Source of the DNA: Clostridiales bacterium
GTDB lineage: Bacteria > Bacillota > Clostridia > Lachnospirales > WRAX01
NCBI GenBank assembly: GCA_031265685.1
Contig: JAISCI010000125.1
Coordinates: forward strand, 1 to 34,346
Length of the DNA stretch: 34,346 nt
Direction of reading: 5' to 3'
How positions within the stretch are numbered: position 1 is the stretch's first letter; each line of letters opens with the position of its first letter. Both the position numbers and the translations under genes were made by a program. A model generated the notes under the pieces. The model was not told the origin of the DNA and did not search any database. It saw only the letters and a list, made by a program, of their open reading frames with translations. Shown piece by piece: positions 7,463-33,296 of this stretch.

Positions 7463-8539
7463 CTAGCTTCTAGTCTCTGACGCGCTTAAGCGCCGCGCCT
7501 GATCTGTCGTTATAAGCGTGTCGATTATCTCGTCCAGATCGCCGCCGAGTGCCGCCTCCAGCCGGTACAATGTAAGGCCTATGCGGTGGTCGGTTACGCG
7601 GCCCTGCGGGAAGTTGTACGTGCGGATACGCTCGGAGCGGTCGCCGGAACCCACTTGGCTCTTCCGCTCGGCGGATTCGCTCCCGCGGCGCTTCGCCAGT
7701 TCCAAGTCGTACAGTTTGGCGCGCAGGATTTTGAGTCCCTTTTCCTTGTTCTTAAGCTGGCTCTTTTCGTCCTGCATCGAGACGACAATCCCCGTCGGCG
7801 CGTGCGTGATCCGGACGGCGCTGTCGGTCGTGTTTACGGACTGCCCGCCGTGGCCGGACGACCGGAACACGTCCACGCGCACGTCGTTCATGTCGAGATT
7901 TACCTCGACGTCCTCGGCTTCGGGCAGGACGGCCACGGTGACGGCGCTCGTATGGACGCGCCCGTTCGACTCGGTGACGGGTACGCGCTGCACGCGGTGC
8001 ACGCCCGACTCATACTTAAGGCGGGAATAAGCGCCCTTGCCGTACACCATAAAGACGACTTCTTTTATGCCGCCGCCCTCGGTCTCGTTTGCGCTCATCA
8101 GCTCGGTCTTCCATCGCCGGCCAGCCGCGTACTGGCAGTACATGCGGTACAGCGCCGCCGCGAACAGCGCGGCCTCGTCCCCGCCCACGCCGCCGCGTAT
8201 CTCCATGACGACGTTTTTCTCGTCGTTGGGATCGACGGGCAGCAACAGAATCTTAAGCTCCGCCGCCAGCCGATCGGCTTCGCGCTTGTTCCTCGCGAAC
8301 TCGTCCTTGACCAGCTGACGGAAATCGTCGTCCAGCGTCTCGCCTAGCATGGCGCGGTTCTCGTCGCGCTCGGACTCGGCCGCTTTCAGCTCGCGGAATT
8401 TGAGCACGACAGGCTCGATCCTCGCCCGCTCCCTCATCGCCGCGCGCCAGCCGGGCTGGTCGGCGATAAGATCCGGATCGGACACGCGCGCCGACAGCTC
8501 CTCGTATTTGTTTTCCAGCTCAGCTAGTTTGTCTGTCAA
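7463..8539 (-). CDS. prfA: Peptide chain release factor 1
   Basis: RF1 reads UAA and UAG stop codons and triggers peptide release. Visible features in this 358-aa protein are the N-terminal helical domain, the stop-codon reading segment with the PxT tripeptide (RVPVTESNGRVHTSAVTV), and the catalytic GGQ loop (SSGHGGQSVNTTDSAVRITH). PxT rather than SPF makes this RF1 and not RF2. The start overlaps the end of the upstream prmC fusion by 20 bases, which suggests translational coupling of the factor with its own methylase. The final residues (SASETRS) run into a TTCTAG-rich spacer. Confidence 0.95.
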   Translation of the reverse strand: MTDKLAELENKYEELSARVSDPDLIADQPGWRAAMRERARIEPVVLKFRELKAAESERDENRAMLGETLDDDFRQLVKDEFARNKREADRLAAELKILLLPVDPNDEKNVVMEIRGGVGGDEAALFAAALYRMYCQYAAGRRWKTELMSANETEGGGIKEVVFMVYGKGAYSRLKYESGVHRVQRVPVTESNGRVHTSAVTVAVLPEAEDVEVNLDMNDVRVDVFRSSGHGGQSVNTTDSAVRITHAPTGIVVSMQDEKSQLKNKEKGLKILRAKLYDLELAKRRGSESAERKSQVGSGDRSERIRTYNFPQGRVTDHRIGLTLYRLEAALGGDLDEIIDTLITTDQARRLSASETRS

Positions 8540-10322
8540 GAATAACTACCCTTTCAAGGCCGGCCAGATCGCGCCTGAGTTCGGCGGAAAAGCCCGCCGC
8601 CTCCGCGATCGCGCGGACGCGTTCAAACTGACCGTCGCCGATCTCGAATACGGCGCGCCCGTTATCCGCCAGAAATCCCGGCAGCACGGCGATTATATCC
8701 CGGTAGAACCGAAGCCCGTCCGCGCCGCCGTCGAGAGAGGCTCGCGGCTCGTAATCCCGGACGTCCGGCATCAGGGACTCAATCTCACCCGACGGTATGT
8801 ACGGCGGATTGGAAACGATTACATCCGCCGCGACGGGCGGTATCGCCGCGAACAGGTCGCTCTCGACGAACTCGACGCGTCCGCCGGCGTCGTTCGACCG
8901 CGCGATGGCCAGCGCGGCGGGGGATATATCGCCCGCGATGATCCGCGCGCCCGGGCAGGCCAGCGCCAGGCTAACGGCCACGCAGCCCGAACCCGTTCCG
9001 ATCTCGATAACCGCAGCGGACGCTCCGCCGATAAGCCCCGCAGCCGTCTCTACCAGCAGTTCCGTCTCGGGGCGCGGGATAAGGACGTCGGGTGTAACGA
9101 CGAAATCGCGGCCCATGAACTCTTTCTTTCCTATTATATAGGCGATCGGCTCCCCGCGTTGCCGGCGGTCGGTCAGATCGCGCAGGCGCTCGGACTCGCC
9201 GTCGGTCAGCGGGACGCCGCCGATAACCTCCTCAATCGGTCTGCCCGTCACGAACGCCGTCAGTATCCGCCTGTCGAGCAGCGGTGAGCCGGGTTCGCGC
9301 CCCGCGGCGTAATCAATCGGGAAACGCGCCAGACCCTCGTCGCCCGGCTCGTCCTCGAGAACGCCTCGCAAGGCGGATATCGCGGTCTCGATCTGACCGT
9401 CGTCCGGCTCAAGCGTCGTTATCTTCTGGAGCGCCAGCCCCGGCGCGGAAATCAGCCCGACGAGCCAGCTGTCAGACTTGCCCGCCCATCGGATCAGCTC
9501 GTATGAGATCCCCGCGACGACAGGGACGAGCAGTACGCGGCTGAGTATCTTGAGCCATAGATTGTCCGTCCGCACGAAGAAAAACACGACCATGCTCACC
9601 AGCATGACAAGCAGAAGGAAACTGGTTCCGCACCGCTTGTGCAGACGGGTGTACCGCCGGACGTTCTCGACGGTCATCAGCTCGTTGTGCTCGAAGCAGT
9701 TGATCGTCTTGTGCTCCGCGCCGTGATACTCGAAGACGCGCTTAATCTCCTTCATGCGGCTGACGAGCAGCATGTAGAGCAGGAAAATCCCGACGCGCGC
9801 GAGACCCTCGATCACGAGCGAGACGGTGAGGTTTATCGGGACGAGCAGCCTGACTCCCGACGACACGAGAGTCGGGAGTACCATGAACAGCCCGACCGAG
9901 AGAGCGACGGAGAGAACTACGCTGAATATCATGACGTAATCCAGCAGTTTGTCGCCCAATTTGCGCTCGAGCCACTCGTCGAACCTCGACTTTTCGCCCT
10001 CGTCCTCGACGTCGGCAAGCCCGGACAGGTCGGCGGAGTCGTAAAGCACCTTCATGCCAGTCACGAGCGAAACGGCGAAAGAGTACACGCCGCGCACCAG
10101 CGGCCATTTGAGTATCCCGTTGGTTTCGGCGGCCCGACCGACCGGCTTCTTGACGGTCTTTATGCCGCCGTCCGCCGCGCGGCAGCTGAGTGCGTACATC
10201 CCGCGCCCGCGCATCATGACGCCTTCCATGACGGCTTGTCCGCCGATAGTGTTTTTGATCAGCGGCTTGTCGCGCAGTAAATCTCGCACGCGCGGACGGA
10301 CGGCGCCGCGGTCTTCAGTCAT
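8520..10322 (-). CDS. prmC: Fusion of YqhQ/DUF1385 membrane protein and PrmC release-factor methyltransferase
   Basis: One open frame of 600 aa joins two proteins usually encoded by neighbouring genes. Residues 1 to about 315 are DUF1385 (YqhQ): GGQAVMEGVMMRG, three or four hydrophobic membrane spans, YHGAEHKTINCFEHNE, and the typical closing TTLEPDDGQIETAI. From about 330 to 600 is PrmC, which methylates the Gln of the GGQ motif in release factors: the SAM loop (IEIGTGSGCVAVSLA) and the catalytic NPPY (about 505, VSNPPYIPSG). The usual N-terminal helical domain of PrmC looks shortened. The ATG at 10322 is chosen because AGGGGG precedes it; the longer ORF start has none. The gene sits between rpmE and prfA. 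Confidence 0.88.
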   Translation of the reverse strand: MTEDRGAVRPRVRDLLRDKPLIKNTIGGQAVMEGVMMRGRGMYALSCRAADGGIKTVKKPVGRAAETNGILKWPLVRGVYSFAVSLVTGMKVLYDSADLSGLADVEDEGEKSRFDEWLERKLGDKLLDYVMIFSVVLSVALSVGLFMVLPTLVSSGVRLLVPINLTVSLVIEGLARVGIFLLYMLLVSRMKEIKRVFEYHGAEHKTINCFEHNELMTVENVRRYTRLHKRCGTSFLLLVMLVSMVVFFFVRTDNLWLKILSRVLLVPVVAGISYELIRWAGKSDSWLVGLISAPGLALQKITTLEPDDGQIETAISALRGVLEDEPGDEGLARFPIDYAAGREPGSPLLDRRILTAFVTGRPIEEVIGGVPLTDGESERLRDLTDRRQRGEPIAYIIGKKEFMGRDFVVTPDVLIPRPETELLVETAAGLIGGASAAVIEIGTGSGCVAVSLALACPGARIIAGDISPAALAIARSNDAGGRVEFVESDLFAAIPPVAADVIVSNPPYIPSGEIESLMPDVRDYEPRASLDGGADGLRFYRDIIAVLPGFLADNGRAVFEIGDGQFERVRAIAEAAGFSAELRRDLAGLERVVILDRQTS

Positions 10323-10441
10323 ATCAATTATCCCCCTGGCGCGAATTTCCTGAATATACGACAATAAAGCCTTTGGCCAGGCGGCTTACGGCTTTATGGG
10401 AAAGCGTTTTCGGGCGGACGCGGCGCGCCCGCCCAACAGAC

Positions 10442-28637: not shown

Positions 28638-28728
28638 TACTAATCCCATTCAGACTTGCGGATAAAAATTTTTCAAACTTCGGCGCGGACTGAAAAATTT
28701 TTACCCGTCTTTCAAAATGGGATTAGTA
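28638..28728. mobile_element. 91-bp hairpin MITE-like element overlapping the GT2 3' end
   Basis: TACTAATCCCATT and AATGGGATTAGTA are perfect 13-bp terminal inverted repeats. Inside, ATAAAAATTTTTCA and TGAAAAATTTTTA continue the pairing, so the whole element can fold into one hairpin. The right arm codes for the last eight residues (TNPILKDG) and the stop of the glycosyltransferase. Confidence 0.75.
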
Positions 28729-29669
28729 TCAAACCCCTCGCTCCGCGCCACGATATACAGCGGGCGCCCCTTTATTTCATCGAAAATCCGCCCGATGTAT
28801 TCCCCGATCATCCCCAGCATCATCATGATTATCCCCTGCGAGATCAGTATGATCGAAACCGTGGACGCCCAGCCCTGGATTGTCGTATTTGTGAACAGCG
28901 CCTGACAGACTATGACAATCAGGTAGGCGAAACTGAGCGCGGATAACGCCGCGCCAAGCGTCGTCGCGATTCTCAGAGGCATGTACGAGAACGACGTTAT
29001 GCCGTCCAGCGCGAATTTGACCATTTTGCGGAACGGGTACTTCGTCTCCCCGGCAAAGCGCTCGTCGCGTACGTATTCCACGGGCGTCTGACTGAAACCG
29101 ACCCACGCCACCAGCCCGCGCATGAACCGATTACGCTCGGAAATACGCTTCATCGTGTCCACAACCTTCCGGTCAAGAAGCCGGAAATCCCCGGTATCGA
29201 CGGGTATGTCGACGTTTGTGACTTTGCGCAGGACGCGGTAGAACATCCTTGCCGTCAGTTTCTTGAATACCGTCTCGCCTTTGCGCGACAGGCGCTTTCC
29301 GTAGACGACCTCCGAACCCGCGCGCCACGCCTCGATCATCTTCGGGATGACCTCCGGCGGATCCTGTAAGTCGGCGTCAATAATGACGACCGCTTCGCCG
29401 GCGGCGTAGTCCATACCGGCGCTTATCGCGGCCTGATGACCGAAATTACGGGAGAAATGAAGCGCTTTGACGCAGTTGTCGCGCCCAGCCATACCATCGA
29501 GTATATCCGCCGTCGTGTCCAAGCTGCCGTCATTGACGAAAATCAGCTCATACGGGGTTTCGAGCGCGGACATAACCGCCGTCAGCCGTTTGTACGACTC
29601 GGCCAGCACCGACTCCTCGTTGTAAGCGGGGATTACTATAGAGTAAACGGGTTTGATGCCATCACCCAC
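28701..29669 (-). CDS. GT2 polyprenyl-phosphate glycosyltransferase
   Basis: This 322-aa protein is of the DPM1/GtrB type, which moves a sugar from a nucleotide donor to undecaprenyl phosphate on the inner membrane face. It shows YSIVIPAYNEESVLAESYKR, FVNDGSLDTTADIL, the metal site VVIIDADLQDPPEVIPKM, SRNFGHQAAISAGMDYA, and two C-terminal membrane spans followed by IGRIFDEIKGRPLYIV. The ORF starts with GTG and a weak site. The last residues after SEGFD come from an inserted repeat element. The next gene upstream is a GT-C enzyme that could use the lipid-linked sugar. Confidence 0.92.
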   Translation of the reverse strand: MGDGIKPVYSIVIPAYNEESVLAESYKRLTAVMSALETPYELIFVNDGSLDTTADILDGMAGRDNCVKALHFSRNFGHQAAISAGMDYAAGEAVVIIDADLQDPPEVIPKMIEAWRAGSEVVYGKRLSRKGETVFKKLTARMFYRVLRKVTNVDIPVDTGDFRLLDRKVVDTMKRISERNRFMRGLVAWVGFSQTPVEYVRDERFAGETKYPFRKMVKFALDGITSFSYMPLRIATTLGAALSALSFAYLIVIVCQALFTNTTIQGWASTVSIILISQGIIMMMLGMIGEYIGRIFDEIKGRPLYIVARSEGFDTNPILKDG

Positions 29670-29789
29670 TTTATTAAGTTAAGATCCTGGGGTTCCGCCC
29701 CAAACCCCGCCGGGGATTTTATCCCAAGACCCCGTTCGTGCCTGGGTTCTCAGGGCGGAGATCCCGCGGTCTTATTTCGGGCGTTTTCA
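29670..29789 (-). other. GC-rich spacer with stem-loops after the GT-C gene
   Basis: The segment contains CCCCGGCGGGG and GGGGTTTGGGGCGGAACCCC, which can form stems on the minus strand. It may weaken or end transcription between the two glycosyltransferase genes, but no T-run follows. Confidence 0.35.
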
Positions 29790-32700
29790 CTATATGATTA
29801 ACTGCCAGTTAGGCGCGGCCAGCTTCAGCACCCAATTGACGTACCACTTAGCTACCGGTATGCCCGATAGCACCGGATAGTACAGCGCGAACAGCAGGAG
29901 CGCCGCGCCCATCACGATATATGCGGGCCTTTTCGAGCCGAAGCGCTCGCACGCGCGTTTCAGCGCCAAGCCAAGCGCCACGGCCAGGAAAGGGACGCAC
30001 GGGAAGTAGTGGTAGATATAGGTTGTCCGGGGTACCGGGATCCAGAAAACGTACTGCGCGAGCCACGCTATTAGCACAAATTTCCAGATTCCTGTGTCGC
30101 GCCCGTGATATGTCTCCCGAGCGCCGAAGATCAGCGCGGCCAAGCCGCCCAGCCATACCACCGGATTCCCGAACGACGATATGCCGCCGGAGACGGAATC
30201 GGTGTAATAGTGCGAATAGAAGAATATCGGCTTCAGTATGATCGGCCAGCTCCACCATTGCGAGGCGTATGGGTGGTCGCTGACAAGATTGTAGTGATAG
30301 TCGAACATGAAGCTCTGCGCGCGGATCACGCCGCCGATCAGCTTACCGGCGTCCCCTCCCGGCAACAGGCCCTGACTGATCCACTTATCCGCGTCCCCGC
30401 CGAACAGGCTGCCCGTCAGGTAATACGGTATATACGACAGCACGTACACGACAGCCGGAACGACGGCAAAAAAACCGACGCACGCCGCGAGCGTTATGGC
30501 CGTATATTTCCAGAACTTAGCCCGCACCGCGCGCGCGGTTTCACGCTCTTCCGGTTCGGAATCGCTCAGCGAGCTATCGCTTGGTTCACGAGAGAGGACG
30601 GCTCCCGCCAGGCGATACTCCTTGAACCGCTTCCATACCGTAAGGAAGAACAGCGCGGCAAGCCCCGCGCCGGCGTATACGCCCGGCCATTTGCTGGCGA
30701 CGCCCAGCCCCATCATCAGCCCGGACATACCGAGCGGCGCCAGAGTTTTCGCCAGCGGCGTGTCGTTCCAGCTCATCCGGTAGTATTTGTACATATAATA
30801 ATACATCGCGATAACGAAAAACGTTATGAACGTGTCGATCGTCGCGATACGCGTCTGCGCGAAATGCATGAAGTCGAACGCGAACAGCAGCGACACCGCA
30901 AACGCCCAGAAGGCGTCCCCAAAGATCCGCCGCGCGAACAGAAACATAAGCGGTATCATCAGAACGCCGAAGAGCGTCCCGGCGAAGCGCCAGCCGAACG
31001 GCGTCATGCCGAAGATCTCTACGCCCGCCGCGATGAACACCTTGCCAAGCGGCGGGTGCGTCGTCTCGTAGACGGGCAGTCCCTGGACGAACTCGTAGGC
31101 TGTGCGCGCGTGGTATATCTCGTCAAAGTAGGTGCCCGTCCAGTACGAGCTTACCGGCTCCCGGTCCGGCAATCCCACCGGGATATACTCCTGCTCGTCG
31201 AGCAACTCGGGCGCGTCGGGGCAGCTGGCGGGTATCAGCTCGCCGCTGTCGCTCTCGAAGCCGACCTCCATCAGATACAGCTCGCCCGAGTCGCCGGAGA
31301 CGCGGACGAACCGCGTCCGCTGTCCGATGTCCATCGAAGCCCACGCGAACACCCAGTCCGTATCGGTTGTGCCGGCCTCGGTATAAACGATCCCGTCCGG
31401 CGACGTCTCGACAGTCAGCTTGATATGGTTGCGCGCGCCCAGCAGCCAGTGCATACGCCTGACGCTCTCGGGTGAGCCGTTCAGCTCGATCACCGCGCCC
31501 TTTCCCGCTTCACCGGATTTCCAGTATGTTTGCGGGCTGCCCGCCGCCCCCAGGTTAACAAAAGCGACGACCGCATAGACGACCGTCAGGCCGCCCATCA
31601 ATATCCAATCCCATTTCGTAAACTTAGAGCGGATTTCGGAACGCTCCGGCCTGAAAGGCTCAGGTTCGCCAGATTCAGGTTCTCCAGATTCGGGTTCGCC
31701 AGATTCGGGCTTCAACGAATCTGGCGAACCCGAATCTGGCTTCAGCGAATCTGGCTTCAACGAATCTGGCTTCAGCAAATCTGGCTTCAGCAAATCTGGC
31801 TTTAGTTCTCCTGATATATCGTCCGCGGCGCTATTGGGGATAATCTCTTCCGATCCGCTTACGCCTGATTCAGGCGAGACCGGAAGCTCCGGCGCCAGCT
31901 TCGTGTCGTCCTCGCGGCCCTCGCGGTAGATGTCGAACATCCAGATTATCATCATCGCGAACAGTGCCGCGAACGGCACCGCGAAGACGATCGACGTCGT
32001 CTCAAGCAGCGCCCAGTTAGAATTCTCCAGCGTCGCGCGGAAAACATCCGCGCAGTTGATCAGCGCCGCCGCGGACACGCCCCAGTACAGCCACATGATA
32101 CGCTTGTCCCGGCGGTAGATGTAAGCGAACATCAGCATCGCGAGTGTCGGGAAGATGTAGCGCTCGTGCATCTTGATCGAGAGCATGAACGCGCACAGGT
32201 TGATAAGCGCCGCCGTGAAGAAGAAATTGCTTTTCGCCTTAGCCCGCCACAGCGAATAGAAGCTGAAACCGACGATGGCGGCTAGCATAAACGCGCCGAT
32301 ATGGCCGGCGGTTATGCCGAGGAACAGCTCGCGCGAGCCGTCGAACCAGTTCATGCCGAACAGCGCCCAGAAATTGTAAGCGTTCACGGTTGCGTAGTTA
32401 TACTGCGAGAGCGTTCCGATATACTGGGACAGTACGAGCGTAAAGTCGTACCCCCCGGAGGACGTGTCCGCGAAGGGCAGCATCACGAAACCCGCCAGAG
32501 CGGCGCATAGCAGCAGCCAGCGGAAATAAGTGCCGAGCAGTTTCCAGAAACTCTTGCCGGAAGCGATGAACTCGAGTATATTGAAGTAGCGGCGTTTCTT
32601 GTCCGCCAGAAAGCTTCTGAAACCGAACGCTTCCTCCCTCAGGTTCATGAAGAAAACGTACATATAGATCGGCGCGAACATGAAATTCTGCGGCTTGACG

Positions 32701-33296
32701 AGCACGCCGAGCGTGAAGAACAGAGAGCTTTTGAGCAGCCTCTTATCCACGATGGCCTTGAGCGAGACGACCGCCAGCAGCGTGTTGATCGAGTCTACCT
32801 GCCCCCACACCGCCGAGTCGAAGAGGACCATCGGGTTGAGCATGTAGCACAGCGCGAGGATCAGCGCCGAACGCTCCTTTACGCGTTTTTCGGCGATCGA
32901 GTAGATCAGCACGCCCGTGACGACGTCCGCCATTATCGCCGGGAACTTAAGCAGGAGGATATAATTATACCCGATGTTGTTCCGCTCAAAGGTGTCGCGG
33001 ATGAAGCCGATCATCCACAGCACGTACATGTATCCGGGCGGGTAGTCCGTGGCCGCGTCGGACGTGTAGAACGACGACGGGCCGTTCCGGTAGAGCATAC
33101 GGCTCCACGCGTCGAAACAGCCGAGATCATAGGGCTGCCCATCGTGAACGAACGTCGCGATTATCGAGACGACGACGCCGATAAGTATTACGATTGAGAT
33201 GTTGGACGAGAAGATCTCCGTTATATTCTTTTTGAGTATAAACACGGCTATGATGAACAGTAGCGCCACCATCATCAGCAGGAACAGCAGAGACAT
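29790..33296 (-). CDS. Double GT-C membrane glycosyltransferase (GT87-like plus PMT/GT39 with inserted discoidin-like domain)
   Basis: This 1168-aa protein has, in order, an N-terminal GT-C membrane domain (about 1-470; DAATDYPPGYMYVLWMIG, AVWGQVDSINTLL, MHERYIFPTLAML); a repeat linker (about 495-545; LKPDS and SGEPE units); one span; an extracytoplasmic beta domain like F5/8-type C (about 585-695; LGARNHIKLTVETSPDG); then a protein-O-mannosyltransferase-like GT-C domain (about 720-1168; TYFDEIYHARTAYEF, TTHPPLGKVFIAAG, RIATIDTFITFF) with the catalytic Asp-Glu. These enzymes take sugars from lipid carriers on the outer membrane face. The ATG at 33296 has GGGGGGAAATCGT ahead; the longer ORF start lies in the promoter. 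The acceptor is unknown. Confidence 0.88.
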   Translation of the reverse strand: MSLLFLLMMVALLFIIAVFILKKNITEIFSSNISIVILIGVVVSIIATFVHDGQPYDLGCFDAWSRMLYRNGPSSFYTSDAATDYPPGYMYVLWMIGFIRDTFERNNIGYNYILLLKFPAIMADVVTGVLIYSIAEKRVKERSALILALCYMLNPMVLFDSAVWGQVDSINTLLAVVSLKAIVDKRLLKSSLFFTLGVLVKPQNFMFAPIYMYVFFMNLREEAFGFRSFLADKKRRYFNILEFIASGKSFWKLLGTYFRWLLLCAALAGFVMLPFADTSSGGYDFTLVLSQYIGTLSQYNYATVNAYNFWALFGMNWFDGSRELFLGITAGHIGAFMLAAIVGFSFYSLWRAKAKSNFFFTAALINLCAFMLSIKMHERYIFPTLAMLMFAYIYRRDKRIMWLYWGVSAAALINCADVFRATLENSNWALLETTSIVFAVPFAALFAMMIIWMFDIYREGREDDTKLAPELPVSPESGVSGSEEIIPNSAADDISGELKPDLLKPDLLKPDSLKPDSLKPDSGSPDSLKPESGEPESGEPESGEPEPFRPERSEIRSKFTKWDWILMGGLTVVYAVVAFVNLGAAGSPQTYWKSGEAGKGAVIELNGSPESVRRMHWLLGARNHIKLTVETSPDGIVYTEAGTTDTDWVFAWASMDIGQRTRFVRVSGDSGELYLMEVGFESDSGELIPASCPDAPELLDEQEYIPVGLPDREPVSSYWTGTYFDEIYHARTAYEFVQGLPVYETTHPPLGKVFIAAGVEIFGMTPFGWRFAGTLFGVLMIPLMFLFARRIFGDAFWAFAVSLLFAFDFMHFAQTRIATIDTFITFFVIAMYYYMYKYYRMSWNDTPLAKTLAPLGMSGLMMGLGVASKWPGVYAGAGLAALFFLTVWKRFKEYRLAGAVLSREPSDSSLSDSEPEERETARAVRAKFWKYTAITLAACVGFFAVVPAVVYVLSYIPYYLTGSLFGGDADKWISQGLLPGGDAGKLIGGVIRAQSFMFDYHYNLVSDHPYASQWWSWPIILKPIFFYSHYYTDSVSGGISSFGNPVVWLGGLAALIFGARETYHGRDTGIWKFVLIAWLAQYVFWIPVPRTTYIYHYFPCVPFLAVALGLALKRACERFGSKRPAYIVMGAALLLFALYYPVLSGIPVAKWYVNWVLKLAAPNWQLII
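31665..31805 (-). repeat. 15-bp repeat array coding the linker, with a 24-bp inverted repeat
   Basis: The array codes for LKPDL/LKPDS repeats on one side and SGEPE repeats on the other. A perfect 24-bp inverted repeat (arms 31684-31707 and 31716-31739, 8-base loop) makes the two halves reverse complements of each other, so sense and antisense of one unit are both translated. Confidence 0.85.

Follow-up and report, generated by a model that had tools for sequence, protein, structure and literature searches.

Two GT-C glycosyltransferase modules and a CBM32-like insert in a single predicted clostridial protein

To our knowledge, little is known about protein O-glycosylation outside the cytoplasm in Firmicutes. 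The window analysed here, a stretch of 34,346 nucleotides (positions 1 to 34,346 of contig JAISCI010000125.1) from a Clostridiales bacterium (GenBank assembly GCA_031265685.1), contains a long reading frame for which the original prediction had proposed two GT-C glycosyltransferases in one protein. The questions raised by this locus are whether both halves of the protein are GT-C enzymes with conserved catalytic acids, whether their fusion is a family trait and what a chain of this kind might do.

The reading frame and its modules

The gene and the site ahead of it were as follows.

29790..33296, minus strand: gene of the dual GT-C protein, complete and stop-free, with its ATG at 33294-33296 and its stop at 29790; 1168 aa
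33340..33368, minus strand: promoter-like site, TTGAAA-17-TATATT, sigma-70-like (10/12 matches, TG ahead of the second hexamer), a consensus match only

The promoter-like site sits immediately upstream of the ATG. A longer ORF of 1192 aa with a TTG start was set aside because the promoter-like site overlaps that start and the alignment of the relatives begins close to the ATG. The ORF was aligned with 89 fused relatives and is intact, and it encodes a single 1168-aa chain in which an ALG6/GPI-MT-I/GT87-like N half is followed by a GT39/PMT C half; both modules were confirmed as GT-C, the C half by Pfam and the N half by AlphaFold and Foldseek.

Four features were delineated in the N half.

31917..33203, minus strand: N-terminal GT-C module, residues 32-460, ALG6/GPI-MT-I/GT87-like by AlphaFold, Foldseek and profile matches
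33126..33128, minus strand: Asp57, candidate catalytic residue of the N module; it comes after helix 1 (33-48), where the JM1 helix (55-71) begins
32790..32807, minus strand: WGQVDS motif of the N module, residues 164-169; W164 and Q166 invariant, D168 kept in at least 90%
32157..32171, minus strand: MHERY motif of the N module, residues 376-380; H377, R379 and Y380 invariant, M376 and E378 kept in at least 90%

The AlphaFold model of the N half (pLDDT 91, pTM 0.91) has a GT-C fold, with yeast ALG6 (6snh, E 2e-6) and Candida GPI mannosyltransferase I (9wno, TM 0.68) as its best Foldseek matches, and the N-half profile matched GPI mannosyltransferase 1 (E 4e-13); the PMT_2 profile also gave a hit in this module (E 1.7e-5). 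Yeast ALG6 (GT57) and GPI mannosyltransferase I (GT50) share the fold of the N half at a TM of about 0.6-0.7 and 15-17% identity, but differ from it in being eukaryotic enzymes that act on lipid-linked acceptors. The GT87-like label originally given to this half held only in part. No Pfam GT87 match was found in the 1168-aa protein at E 0.1, and its Alg6_Alg8 match (E 1e-3, 18.5 bits) lies below the cut-off of 25, so that by Pfam cut-off the N half is assigned neither to GT87 nor to ALG6/ALG8 (GT57), and structurally it is nearer to ALG6 and GPI-MT-I. However, when 14 rows taken from a 71-row alignment of relatives were scanned, five matched Pfam GT87 (best 8e-6); the relatives at L069 and L134 lie above the GT87 cut-off, and the separate N genes of L043 and L048 above that of Alg6_Alg8. 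Membership of the GT-C superfamily is indicated by the fold together with an Asp in the first external loop.

The catalytic acids of this half appear to be intact. D57 is invariant, both in the 90/90 fused sequences and in 73/73 N-halves with separate genes included, and it occupies the same place in the N half as D725/E726 in the C half. K201 and N308 are likewise invariant in the 73 N-halves, and D84, D124 and D168 are each kept in at least 90% of them. An outward-facing position of D57 would fit both the model and the positive loops KRVKER (about 135-140) and DKRLLK (about 182-188), as read by eye from the sequence. Such conservation bears on the possibility that the N half is a GT-C without catalytic activity, serving as a scaffold or acceptor-binding subunit in the manner of PIG-U in GPI transamidase. 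PIG-U chains (8imx_U, 7w72_U) were indeed among the best fold matches of the N half by Foldseek, and Pfam PIG-U matched one of the 14 relatives scanned; the invariance of D57 in the 73 N-halves, and with it that of W164, Q166, K201, N308, H377 and R379, is nevertheless an active-site pattern, and a dead N half is considered improbable.

The remainder of the chain contains a linker and a PMT half with an inserted beta-sandwich.

31632..31916, minus strand: linker, residues 461-555, with Pro/Asp/Glu/Lys repeats, predicted disordered
31560..31616, minus strand: first TM helix (TM1) of the PMT half, residues 561-579, a helix in the model with D563 and Y574 conserved
31161..31538, minus strand: CBM32 / F5-8 type C-like beta-sandwich, residues about 587-712, strands 600-682 in the model; profile and Foldseek
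29793..31160, minus strand: PMT (GT39) core, residues 713-1168; Pfam, Foldseek and profile
31110..31127, minus strand: FDEIYH, the DE motif of protein O-mannosyltransferases, residues 724-729, aligned with FDEVHF of Pmt1

Assignment of the C half as a PMT-like transferase was borne out by Pfam, by profile and by fold. Over residues 747-1146, Pfam PMT (55.1 bits against a cut-off of 22.7), PMT_4TMC (58.6 against 32.4) and PMT_2 (52 against 26.1) all scored above cut-off; a profile of 71 relatives compared with solved structures matched Pmt4 (E 6e-19) and Pmt1 (E 2e-17), and the model had Pmt4 (9i5k, E 7e-13) as its best Foldseek match, with 9e61 and 6p25 also found. In profile and in fold alike, its counterparts are Pmt4 of yeast and Chaetomium and Pmt1 of yeast. 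D725 and E726 are conserved in 100% of the 90 fused sequences, R816 and D821 are invariant too, and GT39 membership rests on the PMT core and C-terminal four-TM profiles, the DE motif in external loop 1 and the GT-C fold. Fold and DE motif are common to the C half and to yeast Pmt4 and Pmt1-Pmt2 (GT39), compared with which the 1168-aa protein has a CBM32-like domain in loop 1 and an extra fused GT-C module. In yeast Pmt4 and Pmt1-Pmt2, a MIR domain occupies a later loop. A recent internal duplication of one GT-C as the origin of the two halves was rejected, their mutual alignment being weak (hhalign probability 15%, E 0.0018, in one comparison).

As strands 600-682 follow TM1 and precede the DE loop, the beta-sandwich is an insert in external loop 1 of the PMT half. 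The F5/8 type C-like domain foreseen for this protein was found, CBM32/F5-8C-like in character; it does not precede the PMT core, as had been supposed, and is placed within the PMT half, with TM1 on one side and FDEIYH on the other. Its class follows from a beta-sandwich that matches both profiles and folds: the family profile matched CBM32 modules (4a42, E 7e-6; AlyQ CBM32) and Foldseek matched the insert to CBM32 4a42 (E 7e-3), while Pfam F5_F8_type_C gave a hit in 7/14 relatives and none in the 1168-aa protein itself.

The charged repeat linker is present between the halves as described, with a pLDDT below 50 at residues 466-538, and would lie on the cytoplasmic side provided that TM1 of the PMT half passes from inside to outside. 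Its KPDSL/SGEPE repeat corresponds to a 15-bp tandem repeat at 31663-31802. The repeat is not shared by the family, since only 2-8% of the relatives in the alignment of fused sequences have residues at positions 481-520; as a feature peculiar to the source genome, it was rejected as a functional trait of the family.

Distribution, gene order and the GT2 neighbour

A survey for fused or separate versions established that both occur, and that the fused form extends beyond Clostridia. Scanning a collection yielded 533 encoded relatives, of which 80 loci were kept, and 89 full-length fused proteins were recovered overall, from Lachnospiraceae, other Clostridia and Paenibacillus; no full-length relative was found in the plasmid collection. 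In an even sample of the source genome's class, 72/196 genomes carry the protein or its parts, and in at least 33 of these a single frame encodes both halves. Direct reading of nine more genomes showed the halves side by side as two genes, N before C, with a PgfS-like GT2 next to them or nearby in several. Elsewhere the N and C halves lie apart, some genomes show the C half only, and stand-alone N-like proteins occur away from PMT (L048, L050). Both halves are of known type, yet the joined form, although widespread in genomes, is apparently undescribed. The architecture is thus not unique to this protein, but no account of it as a standard family, or of the fusion at all, was found in a search of the open-access literature.

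On a tree of C halves, the fused or separate state needs 12 changes, at least seven of which are forced by well-supported branches, a count that leans high since the separate C halves L103 and L124 are cut by contig ends. Repeated switching between the two states is as expected of functionally coupled modules. It was also considered that the protein is an ordinary PMT with an extra membrane domain, joined by a chance gene merger without effect on function. C-half-only genes exist, and Caldicellulosiruptor bescii works with a C-half enzyme of 556 aa (PMC6151902); the fusion has, however, been kept across lineages as distant as Lachnospiraceae and Paenibacillus with both conserved residue sets retained, and a merger without consequence is regarded as very improbable.

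Several relatives show further variation. An extra N-terminal CBM4_9-like domain of about 230 residues was seen in L069, L073, L143, L139 and others, above all in Paenibacillus; it follows a signal peptide-like start, and with it each GT-C unit bears a carbohydrate-binding-like module. The N and C modules are encoded separately in L132-L135, and there each protein is longer at its N terminus by about 250-300 residues. A fused relative of 1649 aa (L142:3682-8631) has about 400 extra residues between the GT-C halves, and an 866-aa relative (L141:5198-7798) has a complete C half, whereas its N half only partly fits the profile and may be a module in decay.

The adjacent GT2 gene was as follows.

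28701..29669, minus strand: GT2 polyprenyl-phosphate glycosyltransferase, PgfS/ArnC-like, 322 aa, the next gene downstream after a 120-bp gap

It matched Glycos_transf_2 (E 9e-35), and its best NCBIfam model was PgfS (NF047588; E 2e-87), with a score of 293.6 bits against a cut-off of 500, so that it is termed PgfS-like, under threshold. An orthologue lies immediately downstream, 7-82 bp away, in 24/82 fused loci and is not adjacent in the other 58/82. Across 57 relatives, the GT2 and the protein co-occur more often than expected (10/12; Fisher p 2e-5, a statistic that ignores relatedness). As most fused loci are without an adjacent GT2, and seven fusion-bearing relatives have a GT2 only 37-41% identical or none found, provision of the donor does not depend on one particular GT2. 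The source genome also encodes, away from this locus, one GtrA-family protein, a possible flippase for the lipid-linked sugar. Between the fused gene and the GT2, positions 29681-29788 are occupied by an interspersed GC-rich repeat with a GGGTTTGGGGCGGAACCCCAGG core, of which five more partial copies (84-91% identity) occur elsewhere in the genome.

Proposed function and comparison with known systems

Three bacterial systems were used for comparison. Deletion of Cbes_1864 (GT39, 556 aa) of C. bescii abolishes glycosylation of secreted proteins (PMC6151902). By that paper's description, Cbes_1864 resembles the C half in having a PMT core and a carbohydrate-binding-like domain in external loop 1 but, unlike the 1168-aa protein, it is a C half only, without the fused N-terminal GT-C module. 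In mycobacteria, a PMT starts glycans that the GT87 enzyme PimE extends with the same donor, polyprenyl-P-mannose (PMC12757957); as is proposed for the fused protein, an initiating PMT and an extending GT-C act outside the cell, but as two separate proteins and with mannose as the sugar. In modification of Cnm in Streptococcus mutans, loss of pgfM1 abolishes the modification and loss of pgfM2 merely reduces it, as for initiation and extension (PMC5856776). The Pgf system (PgfS, PgfM1, PgfE, PgfM2) is like the present locus in combining a PgfS-family GT2 with two PMT_2-type membrane units; its membrane proteins are, however, separate and mutually similar and an epimerase is included, whereas the fused gene has no adjacent epimerase and its GT2 falls under the PgfS cut-off.

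One chain carries two GT-C folds in predicted models, with conserved acids in both and a CBM32-like insert, and its modules are linked with a GT2. Activity of each half, the identity of sugars and acceptors, the sequence of the steps, a flippase and what the insert does are inferred. On balance, the protein is probably a bifunctional extracytoplasmic protein O-glycosyltransferase, with initiation and extension in one chain, fed by a GT2-made polyprenyl-P-sugar. Under this scheme, the PgfS-like GT2 would charge undecaprenyl phosphate with sugar on the cytoplasmic side, the lipid-sugar would be flipped outward, and the PMT (GT39) half would put the first sugar on a Ser or Thr residue of a protein that is secreted or displayed at the surface. 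The ALG6/GT87-like half, using its own GT-C active site, would then add a further sugar to that glycan from a lipid-P-sugar donor, and the CBM32-like domain in external loop 1 may hold the acceptor or first-sugar product near the active sites. The sugar moved by the C half may differ from mannose. We infer the two-step character, as originally envisaged, from the finding of the modules joined in one chain, side by side in a constant gene order, and together with a PgfS-like GT2, and from the mycobacterial precedent of PMT and PimE. Extension is not obligatory, as C-half-only genomes exist.

The nearest structural relatives of the N half (ALG6, GPI-MT-I) act on lipid-linked glycans, which leaves room for an acceptor other than the protein glycan, and two other arrangements were weighed. 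The N half might elongate a polyprenyl-linked sugar outside the cell, as ALG6 does, before the PMT half moves the short glycan to protein; the nearest solved structures, ALG6 (6snh) and GPI mannosyltransferase I (9wno), extend lipid-linked acceptors, and the GPI mannosyltransferase 1 profile match points the same way. Known GT39 enzymes, however, transfer single sugars from polyprenyl monophosphate. As the documented bacterial route is also GT87 elongation after transfer to protein (PMC12757957), elongation on the lipid is thought unlikely. Alternatively, the N half might modify a cell-envelope polymer or lipid, with the fusion merely co-localising two enzymes that share one lipid-P-sugar pool. 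Polyprenyl-P-sugars are used by known relatives of both modules, and the stand-alone N-like proteins away from PMT would suit this arrangement, but repeated fusion and the conserved N, C gene order argue for a coupling tighter than a shared pool, and separate acceptors are given similarly little weight.

Initiation and extension of one protein-bound glycan remain our preferred account. More tentatively, the family could represent a widespread and apparently undescribed enzyme class of Bacillota that combines an initiating and an extending GT-C in one polypeptide with built-in carbohydrate-binding modules, the O-glycan passing between active sites without release. If a single chain does hold two GT-C active sites, initiation, extension and hand-over would become accessible through point mutants of one gene, and many gut and soil bacteria, Paenibacillus included, would be pointed to as having a dedicated glycosylation system for secreted proteins.

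Elsewhere in the window, one ORF at 8520-10364 joins DUF1385 with PrmC (release-factor methyltransferase) and adjoins the RF-1 gene.
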